Shown piece by piece: positions 5,225 through 33,085 of a DNA stretch of 35,697 nt. Where the stretch lies: contig WLNW01000012.1 in assembly GCA_009699605.1 (NCBI GenBank), positions 1 to 35,697 on the forward strand, read 5' to 3'. The translations under genes were made by a program, and so were the position numbers. Positions within the stretch are counted from its first letter, which is position 1; every line of letters starts with the position of its first letter. This DNA is from Actinomycetota bacterium (GTDB lineage Bacteria; Actinomycetota; Acidimicrobiia; Acidimicrobiales; WLNW01). The notes under the pieces were generated by a model. It had not been told where the DNA came from, searched no databases, and saw only the letters and a list, made by a program, of their open reading frames with translations.

Positions 5225-5243
5225 GGCGGCGCAACCCATGACG

Positions 5244-5283
5244 CGTCGGGGGGGAGCCAGCACACGTGCCGACCCCCCCGACG
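5244..5283 (-). terminator. Long G7/C7 hairpin between the BMP lipoprotein gene and the ABC ATPase gene
   Basis: The arms CGTCGGGGGGG (5244-5254) and CCCCCCCGACG (5273-5283) pair perfectly over 11 bp, with an 18-base loop that holds a further GCAC/GTGC pairing. It lies between the binding-protein stop (5317) and the ATPase start. Such intercistronic hairpins commonly protect the binding-protein mRNA 3' end or partly terminate transcription, giving more binding protein than ATPase. Which of these applies here is inference. Confidence 0.55.
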
Positions 5284-5316
5284 TGCAAACGAATTGCGGT
5301 CACGACATGCCGACGA

Positions 5317-6426
5317 TTACTTGCTGGGCACCGTGATCTTGGCGGCCGCGATGTCGGCCTTGTACGCCTCGAGCTTCTTGATGGTGTCGGCGGTGAGGAA
5401 GCCACCAGAAGTGGCATAGCCCACGCCATCGGCCTTGAGGTCGAACACGTCAGCCTTGCCGCCGGCGAACGTGCCGCCGACGAACGCCTTGATGGCGCCG
5501 TACACCGCGACGTCGACGCGCTTGAGCATCGACGTCATGACGAAGGCCTGCAGGTCCTTGCCGACCGTGAGGTACTGGTCGCTGTCGGCCCCGATGCCCC
5601 ACACCTTCTTCGATGCACCGTTCTTGTCGGTGTAGGCCTTGGCTGCCTCGAACATGCCGGTGCCGGACGTGCCTGCGGCGGCGTAGATGATGTCGACGCC
5701 GTCGAAGTACATCTTGTCGGCGATGACCTTGGCCTTGTCAGGAGCGGTGAAGCCGGTGAAGTCACCGTCGAGGGTGATGTACTTGACATCGACCGTGACG
5801 GTGGGCTCGGCCGCCTTGGCGCCCGCGACGTAGCCTGCGGCGAACTTCTTGATGAGGTCGTTCTCGACGCCACCGATGAAGCCGATCTTCTTCGACTTGG
5901 TCTGCAGTGCAGCAGCCGCGCCGACGAGGTATGAGCCCTCTTGCTCCGCGAAGGTCACCGAGTAGACGTTCGGCTGTGCGACGACGGAGTCGACGATCAC
6001 GAACTTCTTGGTGGGGTTGGCCTTGGCCGCCTCTTCGATGGGCGTGGCCCAGAGGAAGCCCACCATGGCCATGAGCTCGTTGTTGGCCACCATGGCCTTC
6101 GCGCGCTCGGCACGATCGCCTTCTTTGGCCTGCACCGACTCGCTCGGGGAGATCTTCAGCTCCTTGGCCGCACGGTCGAGACCGCACGCGGCAGAGTCGT
6201 TGAACGACTGATCGCCACGGCCGGCGAGGTCGAACAGCAGACCCACCTTCTTGCCGGCCGGGTCGCCCTTCTCGGCCGCCTTCGGGCACGAGCTCGAGGC
6301 CGCCGCACCGGTACCGGCGCTGCCGGTAGCCGTAGAACTCGTACTCTTCCCATCGTCGCCGCAAGCCGCGGCGAGCAGCGAGACCGCTGCCAGCGCCGCG
6401 ACGAGCAGCAAAATCCGCTTACGCAT
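5317..6426 (-). CDS. BMP-family nucleoside-binding lipoprotein
   Basis: This 369-residue secreted lipoprotein has a signal peptide MRKRILLLVAALAAVSLLAA with lipobox Cys at LAAAC|G, followed by a Ser/Thr/Ala/Gly-rich linker. The mature domain has the BMP (PF02608) pattern: KVGLLFDLAGRGDQSFND at the start, then A...NN...MVGFLWA, KFVIVDSVV, FAEQEGSYLVG, KIGFIGG, DIIYAAAGTSGTGMFEAA and VWGIGADSDQY. BMP proteins bind purine or pyrimidine nucleosides outside the membrane for ABC import, which agrees with cdd, deoA, rbsK and the PfkB kinase nearby. An AGGAAA site lies 5 bases from the ATG. The permeases that should follow are not in the window, and the adjacent ATPase is chimeric, so the importer looks incomplete here. 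Confidence 0.92.
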   Translation of the reverse strand: MRKRILLLVAALAAVSLLAAACGDDGKSTSSTATGSAGTGAAASSSCPKAAEKGDPAGKKVGLLFDLAGRGDQSFNDSAACGLDRAAKELKISPSESVQAKEGDRAERAKAMVANNELMAMVGFLWATPIEEAAKANPTKKFVIVDSVVAQPNVYSVTFAEQEGSYLVGAAAALQTKSKKIGFIGGVENDLIKKFAAGYVAGAKAAEPTVTVDVKYITLDGDFTGFTAPDKAKVIADKMYFDGVDIIYAAAGTSGTGMFEAAKAYTDKNGASKKVWGIGADSDQYLTVGKDLQAFVMTSMLKRVDVAVYGAIKAFVGGTFAGGKADVFDLKADGVGYATSGGFLTADTIKKLEAYKADIAAAKITVPSK

Positions 6427-6640
6427 TTATTTCCTACCATGTGGAAATGCGACGTCGGTTTCGCTGAACCGGCGCCGCGTCGTTGCCCGAAGCTATCCCG
6501 CGGTCACCGACCGTGCGCAAGGCCGCGCGAGATCGTCATGTGCAGGGCACCTGGCCGAGGAGTCCTAGGCTCCTCTCGCCTACTACCGTCCGGCGGTCGT
6601 TGGCGACGCGGTGGTAGAGACCCGGTACAGAGGAGTGCGC
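6427..6640. promoter_or_regulatory. Divergent intergenic region (BMP lipoprotein / PfkB kinase)
   Basis: These 214 bp hold both promoters. On the plus strand TACCGT at 6584-6589 is a possible -10, and AGAGGAG at 6629-6635 is a strong Shine-Dalgarno 5 bases before the kinase ATG at 6641. GAGGAG (6557-6562) and CTCCTC (6570-6575) form an inverted repeat around TCCTAGG, just upstream of that -10, and could be an operator. No -35 element is convincing, and no small gene was recognised. Confidence 0.4.
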
Positions 6641-7609
6641 ATGGCCGAGTTCGATGTGGTTGGCGTTGGAAACGCGATCGTCGATGTGATCTCGATCGTC
6701 GACGAGGCGTTCATCGTCGAAAATCATTTGGCGAAGGGTTCGATGTCACTCATCGACGCCGAGCGCGCGACGCAGCTCTATGCCTCGATGCCGTCGGGCA
6801 TCGAGTCGTCGGGCGGCTCGGCGGCCAACACCATGGCCGGCGTCGCGTCGTTCGGTGGACGTGCGGCGTACATCGGCAAGGTTCGCGACGATCAGCTCGG
6901 CGAGGTGTTCCGCCACGACATCCGCTCCACCGGAGTCAGCTACGACGTGCCGTACGCAACCGACGGCCCACCAACCGCGCGGTGCCTCATCCAGGTCACC
7001 CCCGACGCCGACCGCACGCTGAACACGTTCCTCGGCATCTCGAGTCTGCTGTCACCCGACGACATCGATCCGGCGCTCGTCGCCTCGGCCAAGCTCGTCT
7101 ACTGCGAGGGCTACCTCTGGGACATCGAGATCGCGAAGCAGGCCATTCGCAAGGCCATGGACATCGGCCGCGCTTCCGGGGCAAAAACGGCGCTCACGCT
7201 CAGCGACTCCTTCTGCGTCGAGCGCCACCGCGACGAATGGCTCGAGCTCATCGGCTCGCGCGTCGACATCATCTTCGCCAACGAGACGGAGATCTGTGCG
7301 CTGTACGAATGCGACTGGGACACCGCAGCCGACAAGATCGCCGGCCAGGTCGAGATCGCCTGTCTCACCCGCCACTCGTCGGGTTCGGTGATCGTCACCG
7401 CCGACGAGCGGTTCGCCATCGGTCCCGAACCGTGCGAGCAGCTCGTCGACACCACCGGTGCGGGCGATCTGTACGCGGCCGGTTTCCTCCACGGTTACGC
7501 CCGGGGCCTCGATCTCGCGACGTGTGGACGCCTCGGTTCGCTTGCCGCGGCCGAGATCATCGGCCACGTCGGCGCACGACCCGCGATCCCGCTCAGCACA
7601 CTGCGTTGA
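6641..7609 (+). CDS. PfkB-family kinase, adenosine-kinase-like
   Basis: This 322-residue cytoplasmic kinase starts at the ATG with AGAGGAG 5 bases upstream; the open frame from 6611 ignores that site. The N-terminal DVVGVGNAIVDVIS, the GG segment SSGGSAANTMAG, FLGISSLLSPDDID, EGYLWD and FANETEICAL are typical of bacterial adenosine-kinase-like PfkB proteins. The C-terminal signature DTTGAGDLYAAGFL carries the catalytic Asp. The likely reaction is ATP-dependent 5'-phosphorylation of a nucleoside, probably adenosine, or of a related sugar. Its position next to a BMP nucleoside-binding protein supports nucleoside salvage. The substrate is inferred; inosine/guanosine or ribose-like sugars are alternatives. 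Confidence 0.85.
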   Translation: MAEFDVVGVGNAIVDVISIVDEAFIVENHLAKGSMSLIDAERATQLYASMPSGIESSGGSAANTMAGVASFGGRAAYIGKVRDDQLGEVFRHDIRSTGVSYDVPYATDGPPTARCLIQVTPDADRTLNTFLGISSLLSPDDIDPALVASAKLVYCEGYLWDIEIAKQAIRKAMDIGRASGAKTALTLSDSFCVERHRDEWLELIGSRVDIIFANETEICALYECDWDTAADKIAGQVEIACLTRHSSGSVIVTADERFAIGPEPCEQLVDTTGAGDLYAAGFLHGYARGLDLATCGRLGSLAAAEIIGHVGARPAIPLSTLR

Positions 7610-7618
7610 CGTGTCGCA

Positions 7619-7648
7619 GCGCTGAGCGAGATCGCGGATCCTCAGCGC
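7619..7648. terminator. Hairpin between convergent kinase and peptide-binding protein genes
   Basis: GCGCTGAG (7619-7626) pairs perfectly with CTCAGCGC (7641-7648) around a 14-base loop. It fills the gap between the kinase stop (7609) and the binding-protein stop (7650). A second, competing inverted repeat exists: 7583-7597 with 7621-7635 (15 bases, one mismatch), which starts inside the kinase gene. It probably ends transcription from both sides. Confidence 0.55.
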
Positions 7649-7649
7649 A

Positions 7650-9362
7650 TCAGCCGATCCAGGCCTTGTCGAACATGACAACCGTGGCGACCGTAGGCCG
7701 GATCCCATGGACGTTCTTGTTCCAGGCGATCATCTCGACCAGCGCCTCGTAGACCGGCGTCGGCATGTCGACGCGCCAGATGTCCTGAATCTTGTCGAGC
7801 GCGGCCTTGCGCTCGGCGTCGGTCTTGCCGGAACGCACGAGCTGGATCTGCGCGTCCATGTCGGTGCTGATGTAATTCATGCTGTTGGCCGCACTGGTCG
7901 AGAGCATGGCGGAGAGCAGGGCGATCTCCGGCGCTTCCTCGGCCACGTTGAGGCCCCAGCACGCGACGTCGTACGCCTTGTTATTCAAGATGTCGGCGAC
8001 GAGGCCGTTCACGTCGTAGTCGTTCTTCAACTTCACGGTGAAGCCTGCGGCGGTGAGCAGGGTCTGGAATGCCTGCGCCCAGCTCTGACGGCTCGGCGCG
8101 TTGTGGCAGTTGAGCCGGATGGTGCCGTCCCATTTGCCTTCGGCCTTGACCTCGGCGATGAGCGCCTTCGCCTTCGCGAGGTCGAACGTGTTCACCGGCG
8201 CGGTCGACGCCCACTTCGAGGTCTTCTGGAAGATGTCACCACCCGGGAAGCCGGCGCTGTTGTTCGCCCGCTGGTTGATCACGTTGGTGTCGAGCGCGTA
8301 GCCAATGGCCTGACGAATTCGCCGATCGGCGGTGATGGTGTCGATGGTGATGACGCCGTCGGGTTTACCCGCGCACACCGCAGCGGGGATGCCGCCCTTG
8401 CAGTTGATCCGGCCGTTGTTCAACAACGCCACGCCACCCATCCACTGGAGGTTGATGTAGCTGTCGACCTTCTTCTCGTCCTGGGCCTTTTTCACAACTT
8501 CGGCCTCACGGATGAAACCCACCTGCAGCGTGCCGGTGTTCAGCGCGTCGTAGGTGGCGGGCGCGCCCGACAGCACCTTGAACACCACGCCGTCGAGGTA
8601 CGGCTTACCGCCCCAGTAGGTGTCGTTGCGCACGAGGGAGATCGACTCCTTCGGCTTGTAGCTGTCGACCTTGAACGGCCCAGCCCCCACCGGCTTCAGG
8701 TTGAACGCGCAGTCCTTGGGCTTGGTCTCCTGGTTGGCACCACATGCGGCTTTGACCGCGGTGGGCGACGGGATCATTCCCACGGTGTACGACAGCGTGT
8801 ACGCGAAGTTGGCCCAGGGTGCGCTGAGGGTGAACTTCACGGTAAGCGGGTCGACCACGGCGTAGTCCTTGATGATCGCGATCTGCGCTGCGGCTCGGGA
8901 GCCGAACGTCAGGTGACGCTTCATGCCGAACACGACCGCTTCAGCATCGAGCACGGTGCCGTCGGTGAACTTCACGTCGGGGCGGAGCTTCAACGTCCAC
9001 TCGGTGAAGTCGGCGTTGGCCGCAAGTCCCTGCGCGAGCTGCGGCTCGAAGACCTTCTTCTCGGTGTTGTAGCGCATGAGCGTGTCAAAGATGGCGGTGA
9101 GCTCGGTCTGGCCCGTGGTGCCGCCGCCGTTCGTGACTACGGGGTCGAGGCCCGCGGTCTCGCTGTACATGCCCATCGTGATCGTGCCGCCCACCTTCGG
9201 CACGGCTGTGGTCGTGGTGTTCGCTGCGGTCGACGTGGAGAGGCTCACTTGTCCCGTCGAGCCCGGCTTGGTGGTTCCCCCTCCGTCGTCACCACACGCC
9301 GCGGCCACGATTCCCATGGCCGCGACAAACAGCACGAGGCGATTCATACGCCCGCGATTCAT
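7650..9362 (-). CDS. Oligopeptide/dipeptide-type ABC substrate-binding lipoprotein (SBP_bac_5)
   Basis: This 570-residue lipoprotein has the signal MNRGRMNRLVLFVAAMGIVA, a Cys in VAAAC|GDDG, and a low-complexity Gly/Thr/Ser linker. The mature protein follows the SBP_bac_5 pattern: GGTITMGMYSETAGLDP, FDTLMRYN, then LAANADFTEWTLKLRPDVKF with TDGT, RNDTYWGG, and AIGYALDTNVIN. Family members bind peptides, nickel or other ligands; the ligand is not predictable here. The ATG at 9362 is chosen over 9347 because GGGGAG lies 7 bases upstream. No Dpp/Opp permease or ATPase gene lies nearby, so this is an orphan that must share a transporter encoded elsewhere. A TAGTAT box and a palindrome lie upstream. 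Confidence 0.9.
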   Translation of the reverse strand: MNRGRMNRLVLFVAAMGIVAAACGDDGGGTTKPGSTGQVSLSTSTAANTTTTAVPKVGGTITMGMYSETAGLDPVVTNGGGTTGQTELTAIFDTLMRYNTEKKVFEPQLAQGLAANADFTEWTLKLRPDVKFTDGTVLDAEAVVFGMKRHLTFGSRAAAQIAIIKDYAVVDPLTVKFTLSAPWANFAYTLSYTVGMIPSPTAVKAACGANQETKPKDCAFNLKPVGAGPFKVDSYKPKESISLVRNDTYWGGKPYLDGVVFKVLSGAPATYDALNTGTLQVGFIREAEVVKKAQDEKKVDSYINLQWMGGVALLNNGRINCKGGIPAAVCAGKPDGVITIDTITADRRIRQAIGYALDTNVINQRANNSAGFPGGDIFQKTSKWASTAPVNTFDLAKAKALIAEVKAEGKWDGTIRLNCHNAPSRQSWAQAFQTLLTAAGFTVKLKNDYDVNGLVADILNNKAYDVACWGLNVAEEAPEIALLSAMLSTSAANSMNYISTDMDAQIQLVRSGKTDAERKAALDKIQDIWRVDMPTPVYEALVEMIAWNKNVHGIRPTVATVVMFDKAWIG

Positions 9363-13597: not shown

Positions 13598-16171
13598 ATG
13601 ACCACGTCCAGCAAGCCCCCAATCGTCCCCCCGAAGCCGGCGCTCGAGGGCATCGAGCAGAAGTGGGACACCGCGTGGGAGAGCTCGGGCGTCTACCGCT
13701 TCGACCGCACCGCAACCCGCGAAGCCGTGTTCTCGATCGACACGCCACCGCCCACGGTTTCAGGGTCGCTCCACGTCGGTCACGTGTTCAGCTACACCCA
13801 CACCGACACCGTGGCCCGCTATCAGCGCATGCGCGGCCGGGCGGTGTTCTACCCCATGGGCTGGGACGACAACGGCCTGCCCACCGAGCGCCGCGTGCAG
13901 AACTACTTCGGCGTGCGATGCGACCCCACCGTCGCGTACGACCCCGCGTTCGAGCCGCCGGCCAAGCCTGACGCCGACAAGCCGGTGTCGATCAGCCGCC
14001 GCAACTTCATCGCGCTGTGCCACCGCCTCACGGTCGATGACGAGAAAGCGTTCGAGGATCTCTTCCGCCGCCTCGGGCTCTCGGTTGATTGGCGAATGAC
14101 CTACGCCACCATCGACGACCACTGCCAGCGCACGTCGCAGCAGGCATTCCTCAACAACCTGGCGCGCGGCGAGGCCTACCAGAGCGAAGCACCGTCGTTG
14201 TGGGATGTCACCTTCCGCACCGCGGTCGCCCAAGCCGAACTCGAAGATCGCGAACGCCCCGGGGCCTACCACACGCTCGCGTTCCACCGAACCGATGGCG
14301 GCGGCGACATCACCATCGACACCACGCGCCCGGAGCTGCTCGCATCATGCGTGGCGCTCGTGGCCCATCCCGACGATCCGCGTTACCAACCGTTGTTCGG
14401 CACCATGGTCCGCACGCCCTTGTTCGACGTCGAGGTACCGATCCGCGCTCACGAGCTCGCCGACCCCGAAAAGGGCACGGGCATCGCGATGATCTGCACG
14501 TTCGGCGACCTCACCGACGTGATCTGGTGGCGCGAGCTCGCGCTGCCGGTGCGGGCCACCGTCGGCCGCGACGGCCGCATCCTGGCCGAGCCCCCGTTCG
14601 GCATCGAGTCCCCGGCTTCGCTCGAGGCCTATGCACAACTCGTCGGCAAGACCGTCGTGTCCGCGCAGAAGATCATGGTCGAGATGCTCCGCGCCTCGGG
14701 CGAAATGCACGGCGATCCGCGCCCCATCACGCACCCGGTGAAGTTCTACGAAAAGGGTGACAAGCCGCTCGAGATCGTGACCACGCGGCAGTGGTACATC
14801 CGCAATGGCGGCCGTGAGGCGCCGCTGCGGAACGCTCTGCTCGAACGTGGTCAGCAGCTCAACTGGGTGCCCGCGTACATGCGCGGGCGCTACGACAGCT
14901 GGGTCGGTGGCCTCAACGGCGACTGGCTCATCAGCCGCCAACGCTTCTTCGGTGTGCCGCTACCCGTGTGGTATCCCCTCGACGCCCTCGGCGACCCGAT
15001 CCACGACTCGCCGATCGTGCCCGACGCCAGCTCGTTGCCCATCGATCCGGCCAGCGACATACCGCCGGGTTACACCGACGCGCAACGCGGCCAACCGAAC
15101 GGGTTCGTCGGCGATCCCGACATCATGGACACGTGGGCAACCTCGTCGCTCACGCCCCAGATCGCGTGCCACTGGATCGACGACCCCGACCTGTTCTCGC
15201 GAACGTTCCCCATGGACATGCGCCCGCAGGGGCACGACATCATCCGCACGTGGCTGTTCTCCACGGTCGTTCGCGCCCACTTCGAGCACGACAACGTGCC
15301 GTGGACCAACGCCGCGCTGTCAGGATGGATCCTCGACCCCGACCGCAAGAAAATGTCGAAGTCGAAAGGCAACGTCGTCACGCCGATGCACCTGCTCGAG
15401 CAGTACGGCAGCGACGCCGTGCGCTATTGGGCGGCGAGCGGTCGGCCGGGCACCGATACCGCGTTCGACGAATCGCAGATGAAGATCGGCCGCCGGTTGT
15501 CGATCAAGCTGCTCAACGCATCGAAGTTCGTGCTCGGCTTCGGTGACGACTCGACGATCGACGTCGATGCGATCACCGTTGCCTCCGACCGTGCGTTCCT
15601 CGCGCGTCTCGCGGAACTCGTCGACGAATCGACGCGAGCCTTCGACGCATACGACTACGCACGAGCGCTCGAGCGCACCGAGACGTTCTTCTGGACATTC
15701 ACCGACAACCACGTCGAGCTCGTCAAAGCACGGGCCTACGGCGAATCCGGCGAAGAGCCGGCGCGCTCCGCGCAGCACGCGTTGCGCCTTGCGTTGTCGA
15801 CATTGCTCCGGCTGTTCGCGCCGCTCCTGCCCTTCGTCACCGAAGAGGTGTGGTCGTGGTGGCACGACGACTCGGTGCACTCGAACCCTTGGCCCGATGC
15901 CGCCGCGCTCCGCGCGGTCGCTTCGGGGGTCGACCCGGCAGTCAGCGATATCGCGGCGGCGGTGCTGAGCGAGATCCGCAAGGCCAAGACCGAAGCGAAG
16001 AAGTCGCTCATCACCCCGGTCGACCACGTGGTCCTCACCGACACCGCGGCCCGCCTCGCGCTCGCCGCGCAGTCACTCGACGACGTGCGCGCCGCCGGCC
16101 GCGTCGCCGAGGCGATCACCACGGTCGAAGGTGACTCGTTCTCCGTCGCAGTAACCCTCGCCGCTGACTGA
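13598..16171 (+). CDS. valS: Valyl-tRNA synthetase
   Basis: This 857-residue class I synthetase charges tRNA-Val. The HIGH motif is HVGH at 59-62 after TPPPTVSGSL, and KMSKS is at 585-589. GWDDNGLPTERRVQNYFG follows the first motif. The CP1 editing domain (about 200-350) shows DTTRPELLASC and the GTGIAMICTFGD segment, needed to clear Thr-tRNA-Val. QGHDIIRTWLFSTV and the anticodon-binding helical domain follow. The GWDDNGLPTER type and the short C-terminus lacking a long coiled-coil arm match the compact, archaeal-like ValRS found in some actinobacteria and alphaproteobacteria rather than the E. coli type of about 950 residues. It is a monocistronic housekeeping gene, convergent with the S9 peptidase gene and separated from it by 5 bp. 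Confidence 0.95.
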   Translation: MTTSSKPPIVPPKPALEGIEQKWDTAWESSGVYRFDRTATREAVFSIDTPPPTVSGSLHVGHVFSYTHTDTVARYQRMRGRAVFYPMGWDDNGLPTERRVQNYFGVRCDPTVAYDPAFEPPAKPDADKPVSISRRNFIALCHRLTVDDEKAFEDLFRRLGLSVDWRMTYATIDDHCQRTSQQAFLNNLARGEAYQSEAPSLWDVTFRTAVAQAELEDRERPGAYHTLAFHRTDGGGDITIDTTRPELLASCVALVAHPDDPRYQPLFGTMVRTPLFDVEVPIRAHELADPEKGTGIAMICTFGDLTDVIWWRELALPVRATVGRDGRILAEPPFGIESPASLEAYAQLVGKTVVSAQKIMVEMLRASGEMHGDPRPITHPVKFYEKGDKPLEIVTTRQWYIRNGGREAPLRNALLERGQQLNWVPAYMRGRYDSWVGGLNGDWLISRQRFFGVPLPVWYPLDALGDPIHDSPIVPDASSLPIDPASDIPPGYTDAQRGQPNGFVGDPDIMDTWATSSLTPQIACHWIDDPDLFSRTFPMDMRPQGHDIIRTWLFSTVVRAHFEHDNVPWTNAALSGWILDPDRKKMSKSKGNVVTPMHLLEQYGSDAVRYWAASGRPGTDTAFDESQMKIGRRLSIKLLNASKFVLGFGDDSTIDVDAITVASDRAFLARLAELVDESTRAFDAYDYARALERTETFFWTFTDNHVELVKARAYGESGEEPARSAQHALRLALSTLLRLFAPLLPFVTEEVWSWWHDDSVHSNPWPDAAALRAVASGVDPAVSDIAAAVLSEIRKAKTEAKKSLITPVDHVVLTDTAARLALAAQSLDDVRAAGRVAEAITTVEGDSFSVAVTLAAD

Positions 16172-20476: not shown

Positions 20477-22057
20477 TCAGCGAGCGATCGCACGACCGGT
20501 ACCGACGACGGTGAAGCACGTCTTCACCTTGTCGGGGGTCTTGGTCCCCGGGCACGGCGAGTTCCACTTCAGCGTGAAGAGCATGTCCCAGCCCGACAGC
20601 TTGCCCGGCTTGAACGTGGCCGGGATCTGAGCGTTGGAGTCGACCGCGCCGATGTTTTCCTTGGCCTTCAACAGGTCGGCCCTGGTCGGGTTCTCGCCCG
20701 CCAAGTACACGATCCGTGCTGCAAGACGAGCGAACGTGCAGGCCGAGCCCACGGCACCGGCCTGGCTGTTCTCGGTCTCGATTGTCAAGTCGAACTTCTC
20801 GCCGACCTTGTTGTTCTCGCTATAGACCTTCTCGCACATCGTGTTCCACTCGGACTTTTTGAAGTCGGTGCCGCGGTAGTCGCCGGTGGGCGTGGTGTCG
20901 ATGGCGATGGTGCCGTTGTACAACGCGGCCGCCTCAGCACCGCCGAAGTCGACGATCTTCGACGACACGAGGTCGCCGGCCTGGCTGTTGTAGTTCGACT
21001 GGTACATCTGGATCTGGCCGTTCTTGATGCCCTTGGTGGCCATCTCCTTGAGGTACCCCGGCAGCGACACCACGTTGAGGGCCGGGAACAACACGTCGAT
21101 CTTGTTCGAGATCAACTTGTCGACCGACGCCGGGGTGCCGTCGCCGCACGACGAGCCGCCCTTGCAGCCGATCACGTCCTCTTGGACGATGTTCAGGCCG
21201 GCCTTCTTGAGCGACGCGATGAGGCCTTCCTTGATGGCCTCGGGATAGCCGGGCGTGTCGGGGTAGACCACGGCGATGCGCTTGCCGGTGAGCGTGCCCT
21301 GCTTGACGAGGTCGTCGCCGAGGTTCTTGGTGTACTCGCTGAGCGTGGGCGCGATCGACGTCATGCGCCCCTTCGAGTCGATGGTGGTCTGGTTGGTGTC
21401 CGAAGTCGACGTGATGAAGATCGTGTCGTGCTCGATCGTGAGGCACTGGAGGCCGGTGCCGGCGAAGCCGGTGCTGTTGACCGCGATCGGGGCCTTGAGG
21501 TCCTCGGTGACCGCGATGCACGCCGCACGGCGATCGGCGTCGAGCGTGGTGCTCTGCGAGTTGACCTCGACGATCTTGTAGTCGATCTTGCGCCCGCGGA
21601 TGCCGCCGCACTTCTCGTTGATGTACGTGAAGAACGTGCGGTACATCTCATTGTTGTCGCCGAGCGGCAATGCGAACCCGATCTTCTCGAGCTGCTCGAG
21701 TTTGGTGCGCAGGTTCACGATGACGATCGAGTCGGCGCTTACCGCGTCGGTGGCCTTGCGGTTCGCGGCGGCCGGGTTCGACGTGCAGAACTCGGTGAGC
21801 GAGGAGAACGGGTCCTTGCTGCGGTCGAACGTCTTCTGGAACGCGTCGTAGATGCCGCCCCGGGGATCGGTGGCGAAGACACCTTTCGCCGCGCCCGACG
21901 CACCAGTACCGGTGGCTCCGGTGGCCGTCGCGCCGCTGGACGAGCCGGTCGTACCGGTGCTCGCACCACCTGAACCGCCTCCGCCGTCGTCGCCACACGC
22001 CGCGGCAATGAGTCCGAGCGCCAAAATCAACGTGGCGCCTCTCCGTACGCGTTTCAT
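20477..22057 (-). CDS. Branched-chain amino acid/amide-type ABC substrate-binding lipoprotein (Peripla_BP_6)
   Basis: This 526-residue lipoprotein has the signal MKRVRRGATLILALGLIA with lipobox Cys in IAAAC|GDDG, then a long Gly/Ser/Thr/Ala linker. The mature part follows the LivJ-type fold: IGFALPLGDNNEMYRTFF, then YINEKCGGIRGRKIDYKIVE, AVNSTGFAG, and GKRIAVVYPDTPGYPEA. Six or more Cys residues suggest disulphides outside the cell. The ATG at 22057 with GGGGAA about 7 bases upstream is preferred to the frame start at 22108. It is divergent from the MFS-LivF and LivH-LivM-LivG genes and probably delivers ligand to them. The ligand could be an amino acid, amide, urea or carboxylate. Confidence 0.88.
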   Translation of the reverse strand: MKRVRRGATLILALGLIAAACGDDGGGGSGGASTGTTGSSSGATATGATGTGASGAAKGVFATDPRGGIYDAFQKTFDRSKDPFSSLTEFCTSNPAAANRKATDAVSADSIVIVNLRTKLEQLEKIGFALPLGDNNEMYRTFFTYINEKCGGIRGRKIDYKIVEVNSQSTTLDADRRAACIAVTEDLKAPIAVNSTGFAGTGLQCLTIEHDTIFITSTSDTNQTTIDSKGRMTSIAPTLSEYTKNLGDDLVKQGTLTGKRIAVVYPDTPGYPEAIKEGLIASLKKAGLNIVQEDVIGCKGGSSCGDGTPASVDKLISNKIDVLFPALNVVSLPGYLKEMATKGIKNGQIQMYQSNYNSQAGDLVSSKIVDFGGAEAAALYNGTIAIDTTPTGDYRGTDFKKSEWNTMCEKVYSENNKVGEKFDLTIETENSQAGAVGSACTFARLAARIVYLAGENPTRADLLKAKENIGAVDSNAQIPATFKPGKLSGWDMLFTLKWNSPCPGTKTPDKVKTCFTVVGTGRAIAR

Positions 22058-22253: not shown

Positions 22254-24473
22254 GTGGACGACAACACGCAGCTAGTCGACGACGATCCGGCGAGCCTGGT
22301 CGCGACGGTGCTCGAAGAGGAAGCCAAGCGACAGGCTGAGCAAGCGGCGCGCTCGGCCGAGAAGGTCCTCCCCGACGACCTGCTTCCCGGGGTGGGCGCA
22401 GCGCAGATGTCGCTCGGCGAGGCGGCCCGGGGCGGCGGCTACTTCATGATGCTGCTGCTACCCCTCATCGCCATGGCCGAGGAGATGGACCGGCTGGCGA
22501 TCGCCGTACTCGCCCCCGACATCCAAAAGACCCTGAACATCAGCGACACCACGCTGATCGGCATCGCGAGCTTCGGCGGCATTGCGCTCGTGCTCGGAGC
22601 CGTACCGCTCGCCTGGCTGGCCGATCGCCTCTCGCGGGTGCGCATCGTCACCATCGCCACGCTCTTCGGGGCGTTCACCGTCTTGTTGAACGGCCTCGTC
22701 GTGAACCCGTTCCAGTTGTTCTGCGCCCGGGTGGCCGTGGGCAGTGCACAGTCCTACAAGACACCGGTACACAACTCCCTGCTCACCGACACCTATCCCA
22801 TTCAGGCGCGTGCCCGGGTGTTCGGGGTCGAAGGCCTCGCCCGGCCGGTCGGCCTGTTGATCGGCCCGTTCATCGCGGGCGGCGTCGCCGACATCGCGGG
22901 CGGCGACGAAGGGTGGCGCTGGGCTTTCGTGGTCTTCTCGCTGCCGCTGGCCCTACTGTCGATGTTGTCGCTTGCCCTCAAGGAGCCCAAGCGCGGTCGC
23001 CACGAGCAGGAGATGGTGCTCGGCAAAGAACTCGACCCGCCGCCCATCGGATCGCAGATTCCCGTGTCGATGTCGGCCGCGTACGCCCGCCTCAAGAAGA
23101 TCAAGACATTCTTCTACATATGTGTGGGCATTGGCACGCTCGGCTTCGCGCTGGTTGCGGTGCCGGTGCAGCTCAGCCTGCTACTCGAGAACGACTACGG
23201 CTATGACGCATTCAAGCGCGGCTGGATGCTCTCGCTCACGTGGCTCGCGTCGATCGTCGCGATCCCCTTCGCGGCCCGGGCGTACGACAAGGCGTTCCGA
23301 TCGAACCCCACGCGCATGGTGCGCATCGGCGGCGCGCTCATCGCCATGTACGGCGTGCTCATGTTGGTCGCGCTGCGATTCCACGATCCGCTGTGGATGA
23401 TCGCCGGCATCAGCCTGGCGAACGCCTGCACGAGTGCTGCGTTCGTGTGCGTCGGCCCCACTATCGGCGCCGTGGCTCCCTACCGCATGCGCGCCCAGGC
23501 GTTCGCGCTCGTGCCGGTGTTCATCTTCTTGATGGGCGGCTTCTTCGGCGGCCTCATCGCCGGTGCCATCTCCGACGCGAACGATGAACGAACGGCCCTC
23601 ACGGTGGTTGCACCACCCGCCGCGATCATCGGTGGCGCGCTGTTCGTCTACGGCTCCCGCTTCTTGAAGCGAGACATCTCGCTCGCCGTCGAGGAGCTGC
23701 TCGAGGAGCAGGACGAACTCAAGCGCATGAGCGCGAACCCCGACGACATCCCGCTGTTGCAGGTGCGCAACCTCGACTTCAGCTACGGGCCCGTCCAGGT
23801 GCTCTTCGATGTCGGCATGGAGCTCAAGCGGGGCGAGGTGCTGGCGCTACTCGGCACCAACGGTGCAGGAAAGTCAACGCTGCTTCGCGCCATATCGGGG
23901 CTGGGCATTCCCGACCGCGGCGTGGTTCGCCTGAGCGGCCGCACGCTCACCTACGTCGACGCCGAGGTTCGGTTCAAGCACGGCATCGTGCAGCTCCGCG
24001 GCGGTGCCGGCACGTTCCGCGAGCTCTCCATCCGCGACAACCTCCGCTCGGCCATGCTGGCCACCCGTAAGTCCGATACCGACAGGGACTCCCGCATCGA
24101 CGAGATCATGCAGCTGTTCCCCGCGCTCACCAACCGCCGCGACGAGCTCGCCGGTGATCTGTCGGGCGGACAACAGCAGATGCTCGCGTTGGCCATGGCG
24201 TTACTGCACGAACCCGAGGTGCTCCTCATCGACGAGCTGTCGCTCGGCCTGGCTCCGCTCGTGGTGCAGGAGCTGCTGGTCATCGTCGAACAGCTCAAGG
24301 CACGCGGGCAGTCGATGATCATCGTCGAACAGTCGGTCAACGTGGCGCTCGCATTCGCCGACCGCGCCGTCTTCATGGAGAAGGGTCGGGTGCGCTTCGA
24401 AGGCCCCGCCCGCGAGCTCGCAGAACGTGATGATCTCGTCCGAGCGGTGTTCCTCGGCGGAGAAGGAGGCTGA
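22254..24473 (+). CDS. MFS permease fused to a LivF-type ABC ATPase
   Basis: This 739-residue polypeptide joins two transporter classes. Residues 1-55 are an acidic cytoplasmic leader. About 60-475 form a 12-helix MFS domain, with LIAMAEEMDRLAIAVLAPDI in helix 1, a motif-A-like LADRLSRVRIV, and SAQSYKTPVHNSLLTDTYPI. After a charged linker (LEEQDELKRMS), about 500-739 is a LivF NBD with Walker A GTNGAGKST at 534-542, signature LSGGQQQM at about 636, and Walker B LLIDELSLGLAP at about 657-668 (DEL where DEP is usual). The start is a GTG with GGGGGA upstream. The stop is 3 bp before the LivH-LivM-LivG gene, so both are one operon. The LivF part should pair with the LivG domain; what the MFS part moves is unknown. 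No frame break occurs at the joint. Confidence 0.88.
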   Translation: MDDNTQLVDDDPASLVATVLEEEAKRQAEQAARSAEKVLPDDLLPGVGAAQMSLGEAARGGGYFMMLLLPLIAMAEEMDRLAIAVLAPDIQKTLNISDTTLIGIASFGGIALVLGAVPLAWLADRLSRVRIVTIATLFGAFTVLLNGLVVNPFQLFCARVAVGSAQSYKTPVHNSLLTDTYPIQARARVFGVEGLARPVGLLIGPFIAGGVADIAGGDEGWRWAFVVFSLPLALLSMLSLALKEPKRGRHEQEMVLGKELDPPPIGSQIPVSMSAAYARLKKIKTFFYICVGIGTLGFALVAVPVQLSLLLENDYGYDAFKRGWMLSLTWLASIVAIPFAARAYDKAFRSNPTRMVRIGGALIAMYGVLMLVALRFHDPLWMIAGISLANACTSAAFVCVGPTIGAVAPYRMRAQAFALVPVFIFLMGGFFGGLIAGAISDANDERTALTVVAPPAAIIGGALFVYGSRFLKRDISLAVEELLEEQDELKRMSANPDDIPLLQVRNLDFSYGPVQVLFDVGMELKRGEVLALLGTNGAGKSTLLRAISGLGIPDRGVVRLSGRTLTYVDAEVRFKHGIVQLRGGAGTFRELSIRDNLRSAMLATRKSDTDRDSRIDEIMQLFPALTNRRDELAGDLSGGQQQMLALAMALLHEPEVLLIDELSLGLAPLVVQELLVIVEQLKARGQSMIIVEQSVNVALAFADRAVFMEKGRVRFEGPARELAERDDLVRAVFLGGEGG

Positions 24474-24476
24474 CCG

Positions 24477-27335
24477 GTGTTCGCATTCGAGCTCACCATG
24501 CAGATGCCGTTCAACGGCATCGTGACCGGCCTCACCTACGCCGTGTTCGCCGCGGGCTTCGTGTTGATCTATCGGTCGACCGGAGTCCTCAACTTCGCCC
24601 AGGGCGAGATCGGCGCGTTCGGCGCGGCAATCCTCGCTCTGTTTGTCTCGAACTACTCCATTCCCTACTGGCTCGCGTTCGCGTTCGCGGTGACGCTATG
24701 TGCCCTGTCCGGTGCGGTGGTCGAGCTCACGGTGGTGCGCCGGCTCTTCAAGGCGCCCCGGCTCGTGTTGCTGATCGCCACATTGGGCGTGGCCCAGATG
24801 TTCACGCTCGGCAAGATCTACCTGCCCGATGTCACGAAGTCGGGCAACTATCCGCTGCCCTTCGCCGAGACGAGCCGCTGGAAGGTTGGGTCGGTCAGCA
24901 TCCTCGGACGCGACCTCATCGTGCTGCTCGTCGTGCCCGTGCTCGTCATCGCGCTCGGGCTGTTCCTCACCCGCACCCGCTTCGGCCTCGCAGTGCGCGC
25001 CTCGGCCTCAAACCCAGACACCGCCCGGGTGTTCGGCATCAGCGTCAAACGCACCTCCACCATCGTGTGGACGTTGGCCGCGGGGTTCGCGGGCGCCACG
25101 GGAATTATGCTCGCGCCGCTCCTCGGCACAACCGCTGCCAAGGCCGGCGCCGATTCACTCGGCCCACCGATGCTGCTGCGGGCGCTCGCAGTGTCGCTCC
25201 TGGCTCGCATGAGATCCTTGCCGGCCTGTCTCGCGGGTGGCATCGCCATCGGCATCGTCGAAGCCGTCGTGAGCGCCAACGTCGGCAACGCGAACCGCAG
25301 CCTGCCCGACGTCTACCTCTTCATCGGCGTGCTCGTGCTGGTGCTCGTGTTCAACCGTGACCGACGTGCCGCCGACGGCTGGTCGTTGTCGTCGCAGGTC
25401 AAACCGATCCCCGCACGACTCCAGCAGATGCGGCTCATCCGGATGCTCCCGGCCATCGGCTTCGTGCTGTTGTACGGCTTCCTCGCACTCATCCCGGTGG
25501 TGCTCAACAAGCCGTCCGACTTCTTCACCTGGACCGACATTCTGATACTGGCGATGGTCGCGCTCTCGTTGTCGATGCTCACCGGTTGGGCTGGGCAGCT
25601 CTCGCTCGGGCACTTCGCGTTCGTCGGCCTAGGCGCGCTCACACTCATTGCGGTGAAGGGCGGAAACGACATACCCGTGCCGTTCGATCTGTGGGACATG
25701 CACCTCACGGTCGGATGGCTGCCGGGTCTCGCCATTGCCACCACCGTCGGCATCGTCGCCGCGATCATCGTCGGCCTGCCCGCGTTGCGCGTGAAAGGAC
25801 TGTTCCTCGCGGTCACCACCCTTGCGTTCGCGGTGATGGCGCAGACCTGGCTGTTCCGCCAGAAGGTGTTCCTCAAGTCGGGCAGCAGTGCCCGAATCCG
25901 GCCGCAGAAGTTCTTCGGATGGACCTTCCCCAACGACCGCAAGCAGTACTACTACTTCTGCCTGATCATCCTCGCGTTGTTGTCGATCATGGTCGCACGC
26001 CTGCGCCGCACCGGCCTCGGCCGTTCGCTCATCGCGGTGCGCGAGAACGAGGACATGGCAGCCGCGTCGACGGTGTCGCCCACGCGCATCAAGCTCACCG
26101 CGTTCGGCATCGCGGGCGGCATCGCCGGACTCGCCGGCGCGCTCCACGCCACGTTGTTCACGAACGTCACGCCCGAGACGCAATACGACCCTGCGGCATC
26201 GATCCGCGTTGTCGCGACCACCATCATCGGCGGCCTCGGCACTGTCGCCGGCCCGGTGCTCGGCGCGCTCTGGACCCGCGGGCTGCCGGCGCGCTTTGAC
26301 AACACCGACGAAGTGAAGTTGTTGACGTCGGGCATCGGCCTGCTCATTTTGTTGCTGTACTTCCCGGGCGGCCTGATGCAGATCGTGTACTCGGTCCGCG
26401 ACGGCATGCTCGGCTTGGCCGACCGCCGCCTCGGCGAACGCGGGGTCGAGAATCCCGTGCCGGCGATCCAGAAGAAGGTGCCGGTGCGTCCGGCGCGCAA
26501 CATCACCGTCGCCGAGGGCACGCCCTGGGTGGCCACGCGAGGCATGCACGTGCGATTCGGCGGCAACCATGCGGTCAATGACGTGAGCATCCACGCGAAC
26601 CGCAACGAGCTCGTAGGGCTCATCGGCGCGAACGGGGCGGGCAAATCCACGTTGATGAACGCCATCAGTGGGTTCGTGCCATCCACGGGCGGCGTCGACG
26701 TGCTCGGCCGCGACGTGTCGAGCGTCGCCGCCTATCGCCGTCACCGCATGGGGCTCGGGCGCGGGTTCCAGTCGGCCAAGCTCTACCCCGACCTCACGGT
26801 GCGCGAGACGCTCATGGTGGCGCTCGAAGCACGCCAGCGAAGCCTGCTCATCCCCTCGCTCACCGCGCTGCCGCCGTCGATCCCCCACGAGCGCCGCAAA
26901 CGCTCCGATGCAACGGACATCATCGACTTCTTGGGCCTGTCGCGCTACGGCGACCAGTTCATCGCGAACTTGTCCACCGGCACGCGGCGCATCGTCGAGC
27001 TCGGGTGTCTGCTCGCGGTCGATGCGAAGGTCCTGCTGCTCGATGAGCCGACAGGTGGAGTCGCACAGAAGGAGACCGAGGCGTTCGGTCCCCTCATCCG
27101 ACGCATCCAGCGCGAGCTCGGGGCGGCGATGTTGGTCATCGAACACGACATGCCGCTGATCATGAGCATCAGCGATCGCGTGTATTGCCTCGAGGCCGGA
27201 TCCATCATCGCCGAAGGCACACCCAGCGAGGTGCGCAACAACCCGCTCGTCATCGCGTCGTACCTGGGCACCGACGAACGGGCCATCGAACGCTCGGGCA
27301 GTGGCTCGGTGGTCGGGGCCACGACAGCCGACTGA
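24477..27335 (+). CDS. LivH-LivM-LivG fusion: both permease domains and one ATPase of a branched-chain amino acid-type ABC importer
   Basis: This 952-residue chain contains three normally separate proteins. About 1-295 is LivH (GLTYAVFAAGFVLIYRSTG, then VLNFAQGEIG). About 315-640 is LivM (LSLSMLTGWAGQLSLGHFAF, LPALRVKGLFLAV, RTGLGRSLIAVRENE, IGGLGTVAGPVLGA). About 675-935 is LivG, with Walker A GANGAGKST at 718-726, Q-loop FQSAKLYPDLTVRET, signature LSTGTRR at about 831, Walker B LLLDEPTGG at about 850, and switch His in IEHD. The GTG start has AAGGAGG 8 bases upstream, overlapping the end of the previous gene. Together with the LivF domain of the upstream protein and the divergent binding lipoprotein, it completes an importer. 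Transport is inward by family knowledge. Confidence 0.92.
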   Translation: MFAFELTMQMPFNGIVTGLTYAVFAAGFVLIYRSTGVLNFAQGEIGAFGAAILALFVSNYSIPYWLAFAFAVTLCALSGAVVELTVVRRLFKAPRLVLLIATLGVAQMFTLGKIYLPDVTKSGNYPLPFAETSRWKVGSVSILGRDLIVLLVVPVLVIALGLFLTRTRFGLAVRASASNPDTARVFGISVKRTSTIVWTLAAGFAGATGIMLAPLLGTTAAKAGADSLGPPMLLRALAVSLLARMRSLPACLAGGIAIGIVEAVVSANVGNANRSLPDVYLFIGVLVLVLVFNRDRRAADGWSLSSQVKPIPARLQQMRLIRMLPAIGFVLLYGFLALIPVVLNKPSDFFTWTDILILAMVALSLSMLTGWAGQLSLGHFAFVGLGALTLIAVKGGNDIPVPFDLWDMHLTVGWLPGLAIATTVGIVAAIIVGLPALRVKGLFLAVTTLAFAVMAQTWLFRQKVFLKSGSSARIRPQKFFGWTFPNDRKQYYYFCLIILALLSIMVARLRRTGLGRSLIAVRENEDMAAASTVSPTRIKLTAFGIAGGIAGLAGALHATLFTNVTPETQYDPAASIRVVATTIIGGLGTVAGPVLGALWTRGLPARFDNTDEVKLLTSGIGLLILLLYFPGGLMQIVYSVRDGMLGLADRRLGERGVENPVPAIQKKVPVRPARNITVAEGTPWVATRGMHVRFGGNHAVNDVSIHANRNELVGLIGANGAGKSTLMNAISGFVPSTGGVDVLGRDVSSVAAYRRHRMGLGRGFQSAKLYPDLTVRETLMVALEARQRSLLIPSLTALPPSIPHERRKRSDATDIIDFLGLSRYGDQFIANLSTGTRRIVELGCLLAVDAKVLLLDEPTGGVAQKETEAFGPLIRRIQRELGAAMLVIEHDMPLIMSISDRVYCLEAGSIIAEGTPSEVRNNPLVIASYLGTDERAIERSGSGSVVGATTAD

Positions 27336-30751: not shown

Positions 30752-30920
30752 TGTCCCCCTACGGGTACGGCGCCCTCAGCCGTACAGTCGGAGCGTAGGC
30801 GCCGTGAGCCGGGCACTGCGGCGTACAGGATGACCCGTCATAGCGATTCCGTTCTACCGCTTCGCCACAGTGGCCAAGTGCCCCGTAACCTCCCAGCAGA
30901 CCGACGCGGGAGAGCGACGC
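30752..30920. promoter_or_regulatory. Divergent control region of the BKACE and acyl-CoA dehydrogenase operons, with inverted repeat
   Basis: GTACGGC (30765-30771) and GCCGTAC (30779-30785) form a perfect 7-bp inverted repeat with a 7-base spacer, 13 bases from the BKACE ATG. A further GCGTACAGG lies near 30820. TACAGT at 30783-30788 is a plus-strand -10 candidate. The repeat could be a regulator site serving both directions, or a hairpin in the BKACE leader. Confidence 0.4.
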
Positions 30921-31940
30921 ATGGATCTCGACCTCACCGAAGACCAGAAGGCCATCAAGGAGGTGTTCTCCGGGTTCTTCACCAACGAAGCGCCACCCAC
31001 CGTCGCTCGCGCGGCCGAGCCGTTCGGCTTCGACCGCTCGTTGTGGACCCGCCTGCTCGAGACTGGTGCACCGGGCATGGGCGTGGCCGAGACCCACGGG
31101 GGCGGCGGCGCATCCCTCGGCGACCTCGTGGTCGTAGCCGAGGCGTTCGGGCGGGCCATCGCACCCGTGCCCCTGGTCGAGCACCTGGTCGCGGCACGGC
31201 TGTTCCCGGCCGACGACGTCGTGAGCGGCGAGTCCATCGCGACGCTTGCGCTGCACCCCGCCGATGCTGACGGCACGTGGCGCATCGTGCCCGCCGGCGC
31301 AGTCGCCGACGTGGTCATCGGTGTCGACGGCGCCGAGATCGTCGCCGTGCGCAGCGCCGCGCCGGGCACGGGCCCGCGCAACCACGCGGCGGCCCCCCTC
31401 GCAGATCGGTCCGCTCGCATCGGCGAGCGGACCGTGCTCGGCCCCGCGGCCGAGTTCTCCCACGCCATCGCCGAGTGGCAGACCGTCACGTCGGGCGCGC
31501 TGGTGGGCATCGCCGCGCAGGCGTTGGCTATCGCGCTCGAGTACGTGATGGCCCGCCAACAGTTCGGCGTTCCAATCGGCTCCTTCCAGGCCATCCAGCA
31601 GGGCATGGCCGATTTGCCGATCCTCGTCGACGGCGGTCGGCTCCTCACCTTCAAGGCGGCGTGGGCCGGCGATCTCGGCAAGCCCGGCATCACCGACGCC
31701 GGCGACAGCAACATCACCGACTTCGAGGCACTCGCATCGATGGCCTTCGTCTTCACGAGCGACGGAGCGGCACACGCCACCGATCGCAGCCTGCACTACC
31801 ACGGCGGATACGGCTTCGCCGAGGAGTACGACATCCAGCTCTTTTACCGCCGTGCCCGAGGCTGGGCACTGGTGTATGACGACCCGAGCCGCGAGGCGCT
31901 CCGGCTCGCCGGCCGTCTCTTCCCCGAGGTGAACCACTGA
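30921..31940 (+). CDS. Acyl-CoA dehydrogenase-like subunit (short, lacking the canonical Glu)
   Basis: This 339-residue ACAD-fold protein has a normal N-terminal helical domain start (MDLDLTEDQKAIKEVFSGFF) and VTSGALVGIAAQALAIALEY and RQQFGVPIGSFQAIQQGMAD in the C-terminal domain. It lacks the FAD/substrate beta-domain motif of active ACADs. Where EGTSEIQ would be, it has YDDPSREALR. Such short ACADs form alpha2beta2 heterotetramers with a second subunit in actinobacterial steroid and branched-acyl degradation (FadE26-27, FadE28-29 type). The start is the ATG with GGGAGAG 6 bases upstream, not the earlier codon of the frame (30870). Its TGA overlaps the next ATG by one base, giving coupled synthesis of the partner. 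Confidence 0.85.
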   Translation: MDLDLTEDQKAIKEVFSGFFTNEAPPTVARAAEPFGFDRSLWTRLLETGAPGMGVAETHGGGGASLGDLVVVAEAFGRAIAPVPLVEHLVAARLFPADDVVSGESIATLALHPADADGTWRIVPAGAVADVVIGVDGAEIVAVRSAAPGTGPRNHAAAPLADRSARIGERTVLGPAAEFSHAIAEWQTVTSGALVGIAAQALAIALEYVMARQQFGVPIGSFQAIQQGMADLPILVDGGRLLTFKAAWAGDLGKPGITDAGDSNITDFEALASMAFVFTSDGAAHATDRSLHYHGGYGFAEEYDIQLFYRRARGWALVYDDPSREALRLAGRLFPEVNH

Positions 31941-33085
31941 TGGACTTCGCACTGCCTCCCCACGTCGAGGAGTACCGCGACACCGTTCGCCGCATCATCG
32001 CCGAGAACGTCACCCCCGAGATGATCGATCGCCAGCACGAGTCGGGCACGTTCAACAGCTACGAGCTGAACCGCGCCATGGCCGAGGCGGGCTTGCTCGA
32101 GCGCGCGGTCCCCGGACTCGGCAAGGGCGACCCGATCGAGCTGTGGGTGCTCTTCCACGAGCTCGAGAAATCACAGGCGCCGTACGACTCGATCTCGGTC
32201 GCGCTCATGATCGCGGGGGTCATCAACGCGGTCGGTACCGAGGAACAGAAGGCGCTCATCATCCCGTCGATCCTCACGGGTGAAGCGCTCGTGTGCATGG
32301 GCTACAGCGAGCCCGACTACGGCAGCGACGTCGCCTCGATCGTCACCCGCGCGGTCAAGGACGGCGACGAGTGGGTCATCAACGGCGCCAAGATGTGGAC
32401 CACCATGGCCCATGAGGCGAAGTGGCTGATCTTGCTCACGCGCACCAACCCCGACGTGCCGAAACACAAGGGCCTCACGATGTTCATCCTGCCGATGGAC
32501 ACGCCGGGCATCACGGTCGAGCCCGTCCCCACCATGGGCACCGAGAAGACGAACGCCACGTTCTACGACAACGTCCGCGTCGGCGACGAGTGGGTGCTCG
32601 GCCAGGTCGACGAGGGTTGGCGTGTCATGGGTGTCGCCCTCGCGTTCGAACGCGGCGTCATGGGTGGCACCAGCGTGGCCACACCACTGCTACGCCACTT
32701 CCATGACTGGGCCGCCCACGTCGGCCTCGCCAACGATCCGCTCGTGCGCGAGCGCATGGCGCGTGTGGCCATCGATGCCGAGGTGTCGAAGCTCCTCACG
32801 CAGCGCTGCGCCTGGATCGCGGCGAGCGGCGGGTTGCCCGGGCTCGAAGGCTCCATGGCCAAGGTGTTCGCCACCGAGTCGTACCAGAAGGCGTCGCGCT
32901 GGTTCCAGCAGATGGCTGGTCCGCGAGGGCTGCTGCAGTTCCACGAGCCCGACGCGGCTGCCGACGGCTGGATCGAGTACGACGCTCGACATTCGCCGGT
33001 GACCACCATCTACGGCGGCACCAGCGAGATCAACCGCAACAACATCGCCGAACGGCACCTCGGGCTGCCCAAGGCACGCCGCTGA
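31940..33085 (+). CDS. Acyl-CoA dehydrogenase, partner subunit with Gly at the canonical Glu position
   Basis: This 381-residue ACAD carries the FAD/substrate motif MGYSEPDYGSDVASI at 120-134, WVINGAKMWTT, and the helix with FERG (Glu237). The C-terminal loop reads IYGGTSEINRNN, so the usual catalytic Glu is Gly. In this subgroup a Glu on helix G takes over, and Glu237 fits that place (as in isovaleryl-CoA dehydrogenase and the FadE pairs of cholesterol side-chain breakdown). It starts in a TGATG overlap with the preceding short subunit, which strongly suggests one complex. The substrate is probably a branched, cyclic or steroid-derived acyl-CoA (inference). The C-terminus (ERHLGLP) is family-typical. 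Confidence 0.88.
   Translation: MDFALPPHVEEYRDTVRRIIAENVTPEMIDRQHESGTFNSYELNRAMAEAGLLERAVPGLGKGDPIELWVLFHELEKSQAPYDSISVALMIAGVINAVGTEEQKALIIPSILTGEALVCMGYSEPDYGSDVASIVTRAVKDGDEWVINGAKMWTTMAHEAKWLILLTRTNPDVPKHKGLTMFILPMDTPGITVEPVPTMGTEKTNATFYDNVRVGDEWVLGQVDEGWRVMGVALAFERGVMGGTSVATPLLRHFHDWAAHVGLANDPLVRERMARVAIDAEVSKLLTQRCAWIAASGGLPGLEGSMAKVFATESYQKASRWFQQMAGPRGLLQFHEPDAAADGWIEYDARHSPVTTIYGGTSEINRNNIAERHLGLPKARR

Follow-up and report, generated by a model that had tools for sequence, protein, structure and literature searches.

A Spinster-like MFS domain fused to the LivF ATPase of a Liv-type ABC importer in Actinomycetota

An operon from a bacterium of the order Acidimicrobiales encodes a Liv-type ABC importer whose LivF ATPase is joined, in a single open reading frame, to a 12-helix MFS domain, and the same fusion recurs in dozens of related genomes. 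The ABC and MFS superfamilies, both among the largest groups of transporters, are regarded as separate in mechanism. The reading that we hold to be somewhat better than even is that of a Liv-type importer whose LivF holds a Spinster-like (Spns-like) carrier by the channel, the two handling the same or a linked solute; assembly into one complex, transport by the MFS part, and the shared or linked solute are the parts of this reading that we infer. Both halves are of known kinds and their conserved union is new, though prior notice elsewhere is possible; no description of an MFS-Liv ATPase fusion was found in the PMC full-text literature, as judged by titles and abstracts and with subscription journals mostly outside it. 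This conserved and repeatedly duplicated family of MFS-ABC motor proteins offers a natural setting for testing primary and secondary transport in one complex, in which naturally occurring members that have or lack either half serve as built-in controls.

The window is the whole stretch of DNA that was analyzed (35,697 nucleotides). The features of the fusion operon within it are as follows:

20477..22057, - strand: divergent solute-binding lipoprotein, periplasmic binding protein type I (Peripla_BP_6-like)
22254..24473, + strand: MFS-LivF fusion gene (739 aa, GTG start; Pfam, NCBIfam, AlphaFold2 model)
22383..22397, + strand: conserved N-terminal LPGVG motif ahead of TM1 (aa 44-48)
22419..23705, + strand: Spinster-like MFS domain with 12 TM helices (aa 56-484)
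23673..23744, + strand: linker helix (aa 474-497), the end of a continuous helix 445-494 from TM12 to LivF
23754..24464, + strand: LivF-type ATPase domain (aa 501-737)
24477..27335, + strand: LivH-LivM-LivG fusion gene (952 aa, GTG start; Pfam, NCBIfam)
24477..25376, + strand: LivH domain (aa 1-300 of LivH-LivM-LivG)
25434..26426, + strand: LivM domain (aa 320-650 of LivH-LivM-LivG)
26523..27281, + strand: LivG-type ATPase domain (aa 683-935 of LivH-LivM-LivG)

The two fusion genes lie in the same frame, separated by a TGA stop (24471-24473) and 3 bases that precede the second GTG, and Shine-Dalgarno-like sequences are found 5' of each start (GGGGGA for 22254, GGAGG for 24477). The first-pass annotation had read the first frame as an MFS domain followed by a complete LivF, and the frame 3 bp downstream as LivH, LivM, and LivG. 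Both assignments are borne out by the open reading frames and by Pfam and NCBIfam, together with the AlphaFold2 model for the first protein. The 739-aa protein matches MFS_1 (residues 75-419, E 2.6e-39) and ABC_tran (519-661, E 1.9e-27), and the 952-aa protein matches BPD_transp_2 in two stretches (1.2e-65), ABC_tran, and BCA_ABC_TP_C, the LivG C-terminal motif. Among NCBIfam models, the closest to the ATPase domains are UrtE/LivF and LivG/UrtD; the closest to the channel domains are UrtB/UrtC, with scores below the cut-offs of those models. The ABC motor motifs (Walker A/B, signature, and D-loop) are intact in the LivF and LivG parts; those of the LivF domain read GTNGAGKST, LSGGQ, LLIDEL, and SLGLAP, with EQS at the switch position. 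The Walker B DEL that had been remarked on as an oddity is the family norm: of 72 relatives, at least 90% have it.

The AlphaFold2 model of MFS-LivF (pLDDT 82, pTM 0.77), a single-chain model that is silent on packing against LivH/LivM, has 12 TM helices followed by the ATPase, and in it TM12 and the linker form one continuous helix (residues 445-494) that reaches the ATPase. Fifteen type I sequences (the layout of the window, defined below) show no variation at residues D474, E481, L482, E484, and E485 of the linker or at P45, G46, V47, and G48 of the N-terminal motif. No RNA families were found in the window.

The divergent lipoprotein had been proposed to complete the importer, and its lipobox, its relatives, and its profile all agree. 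The lipobox cysteine (C21) is invariant in eight relatives. The product of 20477-22057 itself has no Pfam match; Peripla_BP_6 is matched in 14 of 19 aligned relatives, and the group profile matches the type I binding protein 3lop (E 1.6e-7). A low-confidence model of the protein (pLDDT 57) also matches type I binding proteins, and a ligand guess from this model was rejected because its confidence is too low for anything beyond the fold. Since channel, ATPase, and binding-protein parts are all identified, the operon encodes all parts of a Liv-type importer and, in addition, an MFS domain. Like the LivFGHM/UrtABCDE importers (HAAT), it has LivH, LivM, LivG, and LivF with a type I binding protein, as well as intact Walker A, signature, and D-loop; in contrast to those systems, the four proteins have become two, and LivF carries an MFS carrier.

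The fusion is widespread, and the absence from all relatives that would have spoken against it is not what the genomes hold. Within the same genome, a second copy lies on contigs C104 and C269, which overlap by 149 identical bases; it has the layout of the window (divergent binding protein, MFS-LivF, LivHMG) and is 56% identical to the window MFS-LivF over residues 122-738. A count of three copies in the genome was rejected, as the two contigs are the two ends of one locus and the genome therefore has two. A match spanning both MFS and LivF was found in 29 of 59 genomes of the order (one genome per family). At E <= 1e-80, a threshold that LivF alone does not normally reach, fusion-level matches occur in 67 of the 247 genomes from the class and 19 of the 396 from the phylum; a few of these matches are fragmentary, for the most part where a contig ends. 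Several genomes of the order have at least eight fusion copies. The fusion is also present in isolates (Yinghuangia seranimata and Embleya sp. NBC_00888), and one full-length match, from Embleya, was found among 72,556 plasmid records.

The 72 nonredundant fusion proteins fall into two operon layouts. Type I (41 proteins), the layout of the window, is MFS-LivF, normally followed by LivH-LivM-LivG, except that in a few loci LivG has a frame of its own (L118, L122) and in one LivHM is upstream (L071). Type II (31 proteins) is LivH-LivM followed by MFS-LivF-LivG. The expectation that MFS-LivF always neighbors a LivHMG fusion thus holds normally for type I and fails for type II and for the deviating loci. 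In every fusion protein of either layout the MFS domain immediately precedes LivF on its N-terminal side, and each complete operon of either layout contains one LivF, one LivG, one LivH, and one LivM. Because there is one complete LivF/LivG pair per operon, these operons are most naturally read as tethering the MFS domain to the ABC core.

Both layouts have cousins in the same order that share the ABC core of the fusion operons and, unlike them, have no MFS domain: LivF|LivHMG (L138, L155), and LivHM|LivFG and LivHMFG (L126, L137-L156). In some of these the whole core LivH-LivM-LivF-LivG occupies one frame of 1237-1655 codons (L126:12283-16095 on the + strand, L150, L152, L154, and L156). A homologue of the window binding protein adjoins most type I operons (31 loci examined, 29 proteins). 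Proteins of a different family, about 563 aa long and with a membrane segment at the N-terminus, lie beside 17 MFS-bearing type II operons and 15 MFS-less FG operons (the loci include L083-L086 and L110-L112); no Pfam match was found in the members tested, and this is probably an undescribed binding-protein family. The LivHM|LivFG and LivHMFG forms have this family in common with type II.

By profile and predicted fold, the MFS part is nearest to the Spinster (Spns) family of lipid transporters. The profile built from 42 fused MFS domains has its best match in the bacterial family member HnSpns (6e8j, E 2.7e-44), with weaker matches to human Spns1 (4e-31), DgoT (5e-29), and Spns2 (2e-22). The MFS part of the AlphaFold2 model aligns with human Spns2 (8ex4) at Z 40.1 and rmsd 3.2 over 395 aligned residues in VIA-align, from which the MFS matches came; the top Foldseek matches of the whole MFS-LivF model are ATPases. 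One close MFS relative with established transport is DgoT, a D-galactonate:H+ symporter (6e9n/6e9o; E 5e-29, Z 37), but it has no ATPase and is a weaker match than HnSpns.

In Spns proteins, motif A joins an Asp of TM4 and an Arg of TM11 in the cytoplasmic gate; the proton switch consists of a TM1 Asp-Arg, a TM4 Arg, and a TM4 Glu, and the outside latch of a TM2 Asp and a TM7 Arg (PMC9440201; PMC13192786); the TM4 Glu of HnSpns, E129, is the master proton switch (PMC9440201). The fused MFS domains have in common with Spns (HnSpns 6e8j, human Spns1 9boi, Spns2 8ex4) the EPxRG motif after TM6, motif A, and the TM4 Asp/TM11 Arg network; in type II, the TM1 Asp and the TM4 Arg are also present in nearly all members. 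The gate is near-invariant among fused sequences (D124 in 69 of 74, R128 in 74 of 74, D179 in 73 of 74, and R413 in 74 of 74). The fused domains differ from Spns in having extra TM1 acids and in being joined to an ABC ATPase, and acids 76 and 77 of TM1 are conserved in both types. D79 (HnSpns D41) is Asp in 30 of 31 type II sequences and acidic in 27 of 43 type I sequences; the position of HnSpns R42 is Arg in 24 of 31 and 17 of 43, respectively, and R159 (HnSpns R122) is Arg in 30 of 31 and 27 of 43.

In contrast to Spns, the TM4 Glu switch is replaced: the position of E129 is Gln in the window and mostly Lys, Arg, or Gln across the 74 fused members. Nor is the periplasmic bridge (HnSpns D60-R289) kept, the TM7 position being acidic in most sequences and the TM2 Asp occurring mainly in type I. 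With E129 replaced and the Asp-Arg bridge gone, the mode of transport is not readable from Spns. Variation is greatest in the C-terminal half, where TM9 and TM10 have the highest entropy. As to the substrate-path conservation that the first-pass annotation proposed to check, the gate network and the TM1 acids are kept, and the cavity outside TM1/TM4 varies. Taken together, these alignments suggest that the moving parts of the MFS domain have been retained and its proton logic altered. We infer a working carrier rather than an anchor, although a loss of transport ability is conceivable.

Phylogenetic trees place unfused relatives of each half within the fused clades. In the LivF tree, type I forms one group with the unfused LivFs of L138 and L155 inside it or at its base, and several strongly supported nodes place the unfused FG rows L145, L147, L148, and L151 inside type II; unfused LivFs fall between types I and II with weak support. 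The MFS tree separates the two types (support 100/99) and has stand-alone MFS proteins inside type II: L125 with L067 (100/99), L127 (98/98), L124+L126, and L123, the last being less certain because of its position close to a contig end. These trees are most simply read as showing repeated loss or release of each half. Because unfused LivFs and stand-alone MFSs nest inside fused clades, each half appears able to work alone.

The divergence of the MFS domain follows the LivH/LivM channel and not the LivF to which it is covalently joined, as judged from sequence distances. Mean pairwise identity is 0.38-0.39 for MFS, 0.41-0.44 for LivH/LivM, and 0.59-0.64 for LivF/LivG. With LivF and LivG removed, the partial correlations of MFS with LivM/LivH are 0.62/0.62 in type I and 0.61/0.72 in type II, equally high values occurring in 0 of 2000 permutations; partial Mantel tests are liberal, and rate effects in fast-evolving membrane domains could contribute to these values. 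With LivH and LivM removed, the partial correlation of MFS with LivF is 0.26 in type I and -0.01 in type II. For comparison, LivH and LivM correlate at 0.72 in type I and 0.50 in type II. Such co-divergence is expected if the specificities of MFS and channel change jointly.

In the favored model, the LivHM channel, the LivG/LivF motors, and the lipoprotein receptor make up a complete Liv-type ABC importer, as predicted from the genes, and the Spns-like MFS domain would be an alternating-access carrier placed beside the ABC channel, with LivF fixing its position and a 1:1 ratio. The MFS domain would handle a solute that is the same as, or metabolically linked to, that of the importer; it might control backflow or overflow, export a product or counter-solute, or provide a high-capacity second route. 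The stand-alone copies nested in type II argue that the MFS domain works by itself. These copies, with the unfused LivFs and the MFS-less FG operons that have the type II binding-protein family, would also suit two autonomous transporters joined for co-expression and a fixed ratio, with neither a mechanical nor a substrate link. We regard such a pairing as unlikely but worth serious attention: the MFS diverges in step with the channel domains and not with the ATPase it is fused to, it is joined in every case to the N-terminus of LivF, and the modeled TM12-linker helix is continuous and has invariant linker residues.

That same straight helix from TM12 into LivF is compatible with a sensor or regulator (transceptor), in which solute in the cavity or pH would alter the LivF ATPase and gate import; retention of the gate with loss of the Spns proton switch might suit a binding-competent, uncoupled carrier. 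The derived stand-alone copies (L124-L127), which have no ATPase to regulate, speak against this role, and we think it rather improbable. An ATP-energized MFS, in which ATP hydrolysis in the LivF/LivG cycle would, through the TM12-linker helix, drive or gate the alternating access of ABC channel and MFS alike and tie the import of one solute to the movement of a second, would explain loss of the proton switch alongside a kept gate network; we give this idea little credence. Very improbable is a membrane anchor or assembly scaffold that does not transport, a role the first-pass annotation had entertained and to which the variable TM9 and TM10 and the lost proton switch could be fitted: the evidence suggests otherwise, in that the gate network and TM1 acidic cluster are conserved, the MFS co-diverges with the channel, Liv ABC cores without MFS are common within the same clades, and stand-alone MFS copies persist. 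An assembly or frame artefact has a negligible chance of accounting for the fusion, given the second copy in the genome, the isolates, and a recurrence across families and class that rules out chance or misassembly.

For the Spns-like carrier and importer of the favored model, the probable solute is an organic acid or lipid-like acid, to judge from Spns affinity and catabolic neighbor genes. The neighbors in the window encode an acyl-CoA dehydrogenase, an enoyl-CoA hydratase, a BKACE, an SDR, and an APH-type kinase; those at other loci encode SDR, enoyl-CoA hydratase, and AMP-binding enzymes, with putative amidohydrolases and CoA-transferases recognized by eye from the sequence. A ligand from conserved neighbors was sought and rejected, since SDR, enoyl-CoA hydratase, AMP-binding, sulfatase, and rhamnosidase genes occur at differing loci and form no single pathway; the neighbors thus indicate organic-acid catabolism in general and no single ligand.

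Elsewhere in the window, a 397-aa frame (30759-31952, - strand) between the BKACE and acyl-CoA dehydrogenase genes has no Pfam or NCBIfam match. Other transport genes (4256-9362, - strand) encode two binding proteins, one of the SBP_bac_5 type and one Bmp/PnrA-like, together with an ABC ATPase whose frame (4256-5263) has an additional C-terminal match to Q_salvage; they adjoin genes for a pyrimidine nucleoside phosphorylase and a PfkB kinase. The valyl-tRNA synthetase at 13598-16171 (+ strand) scores below the cut-off of the usual valS model (TIGR00422) and above those for alt_ValS (NF000540) and PRK13208.
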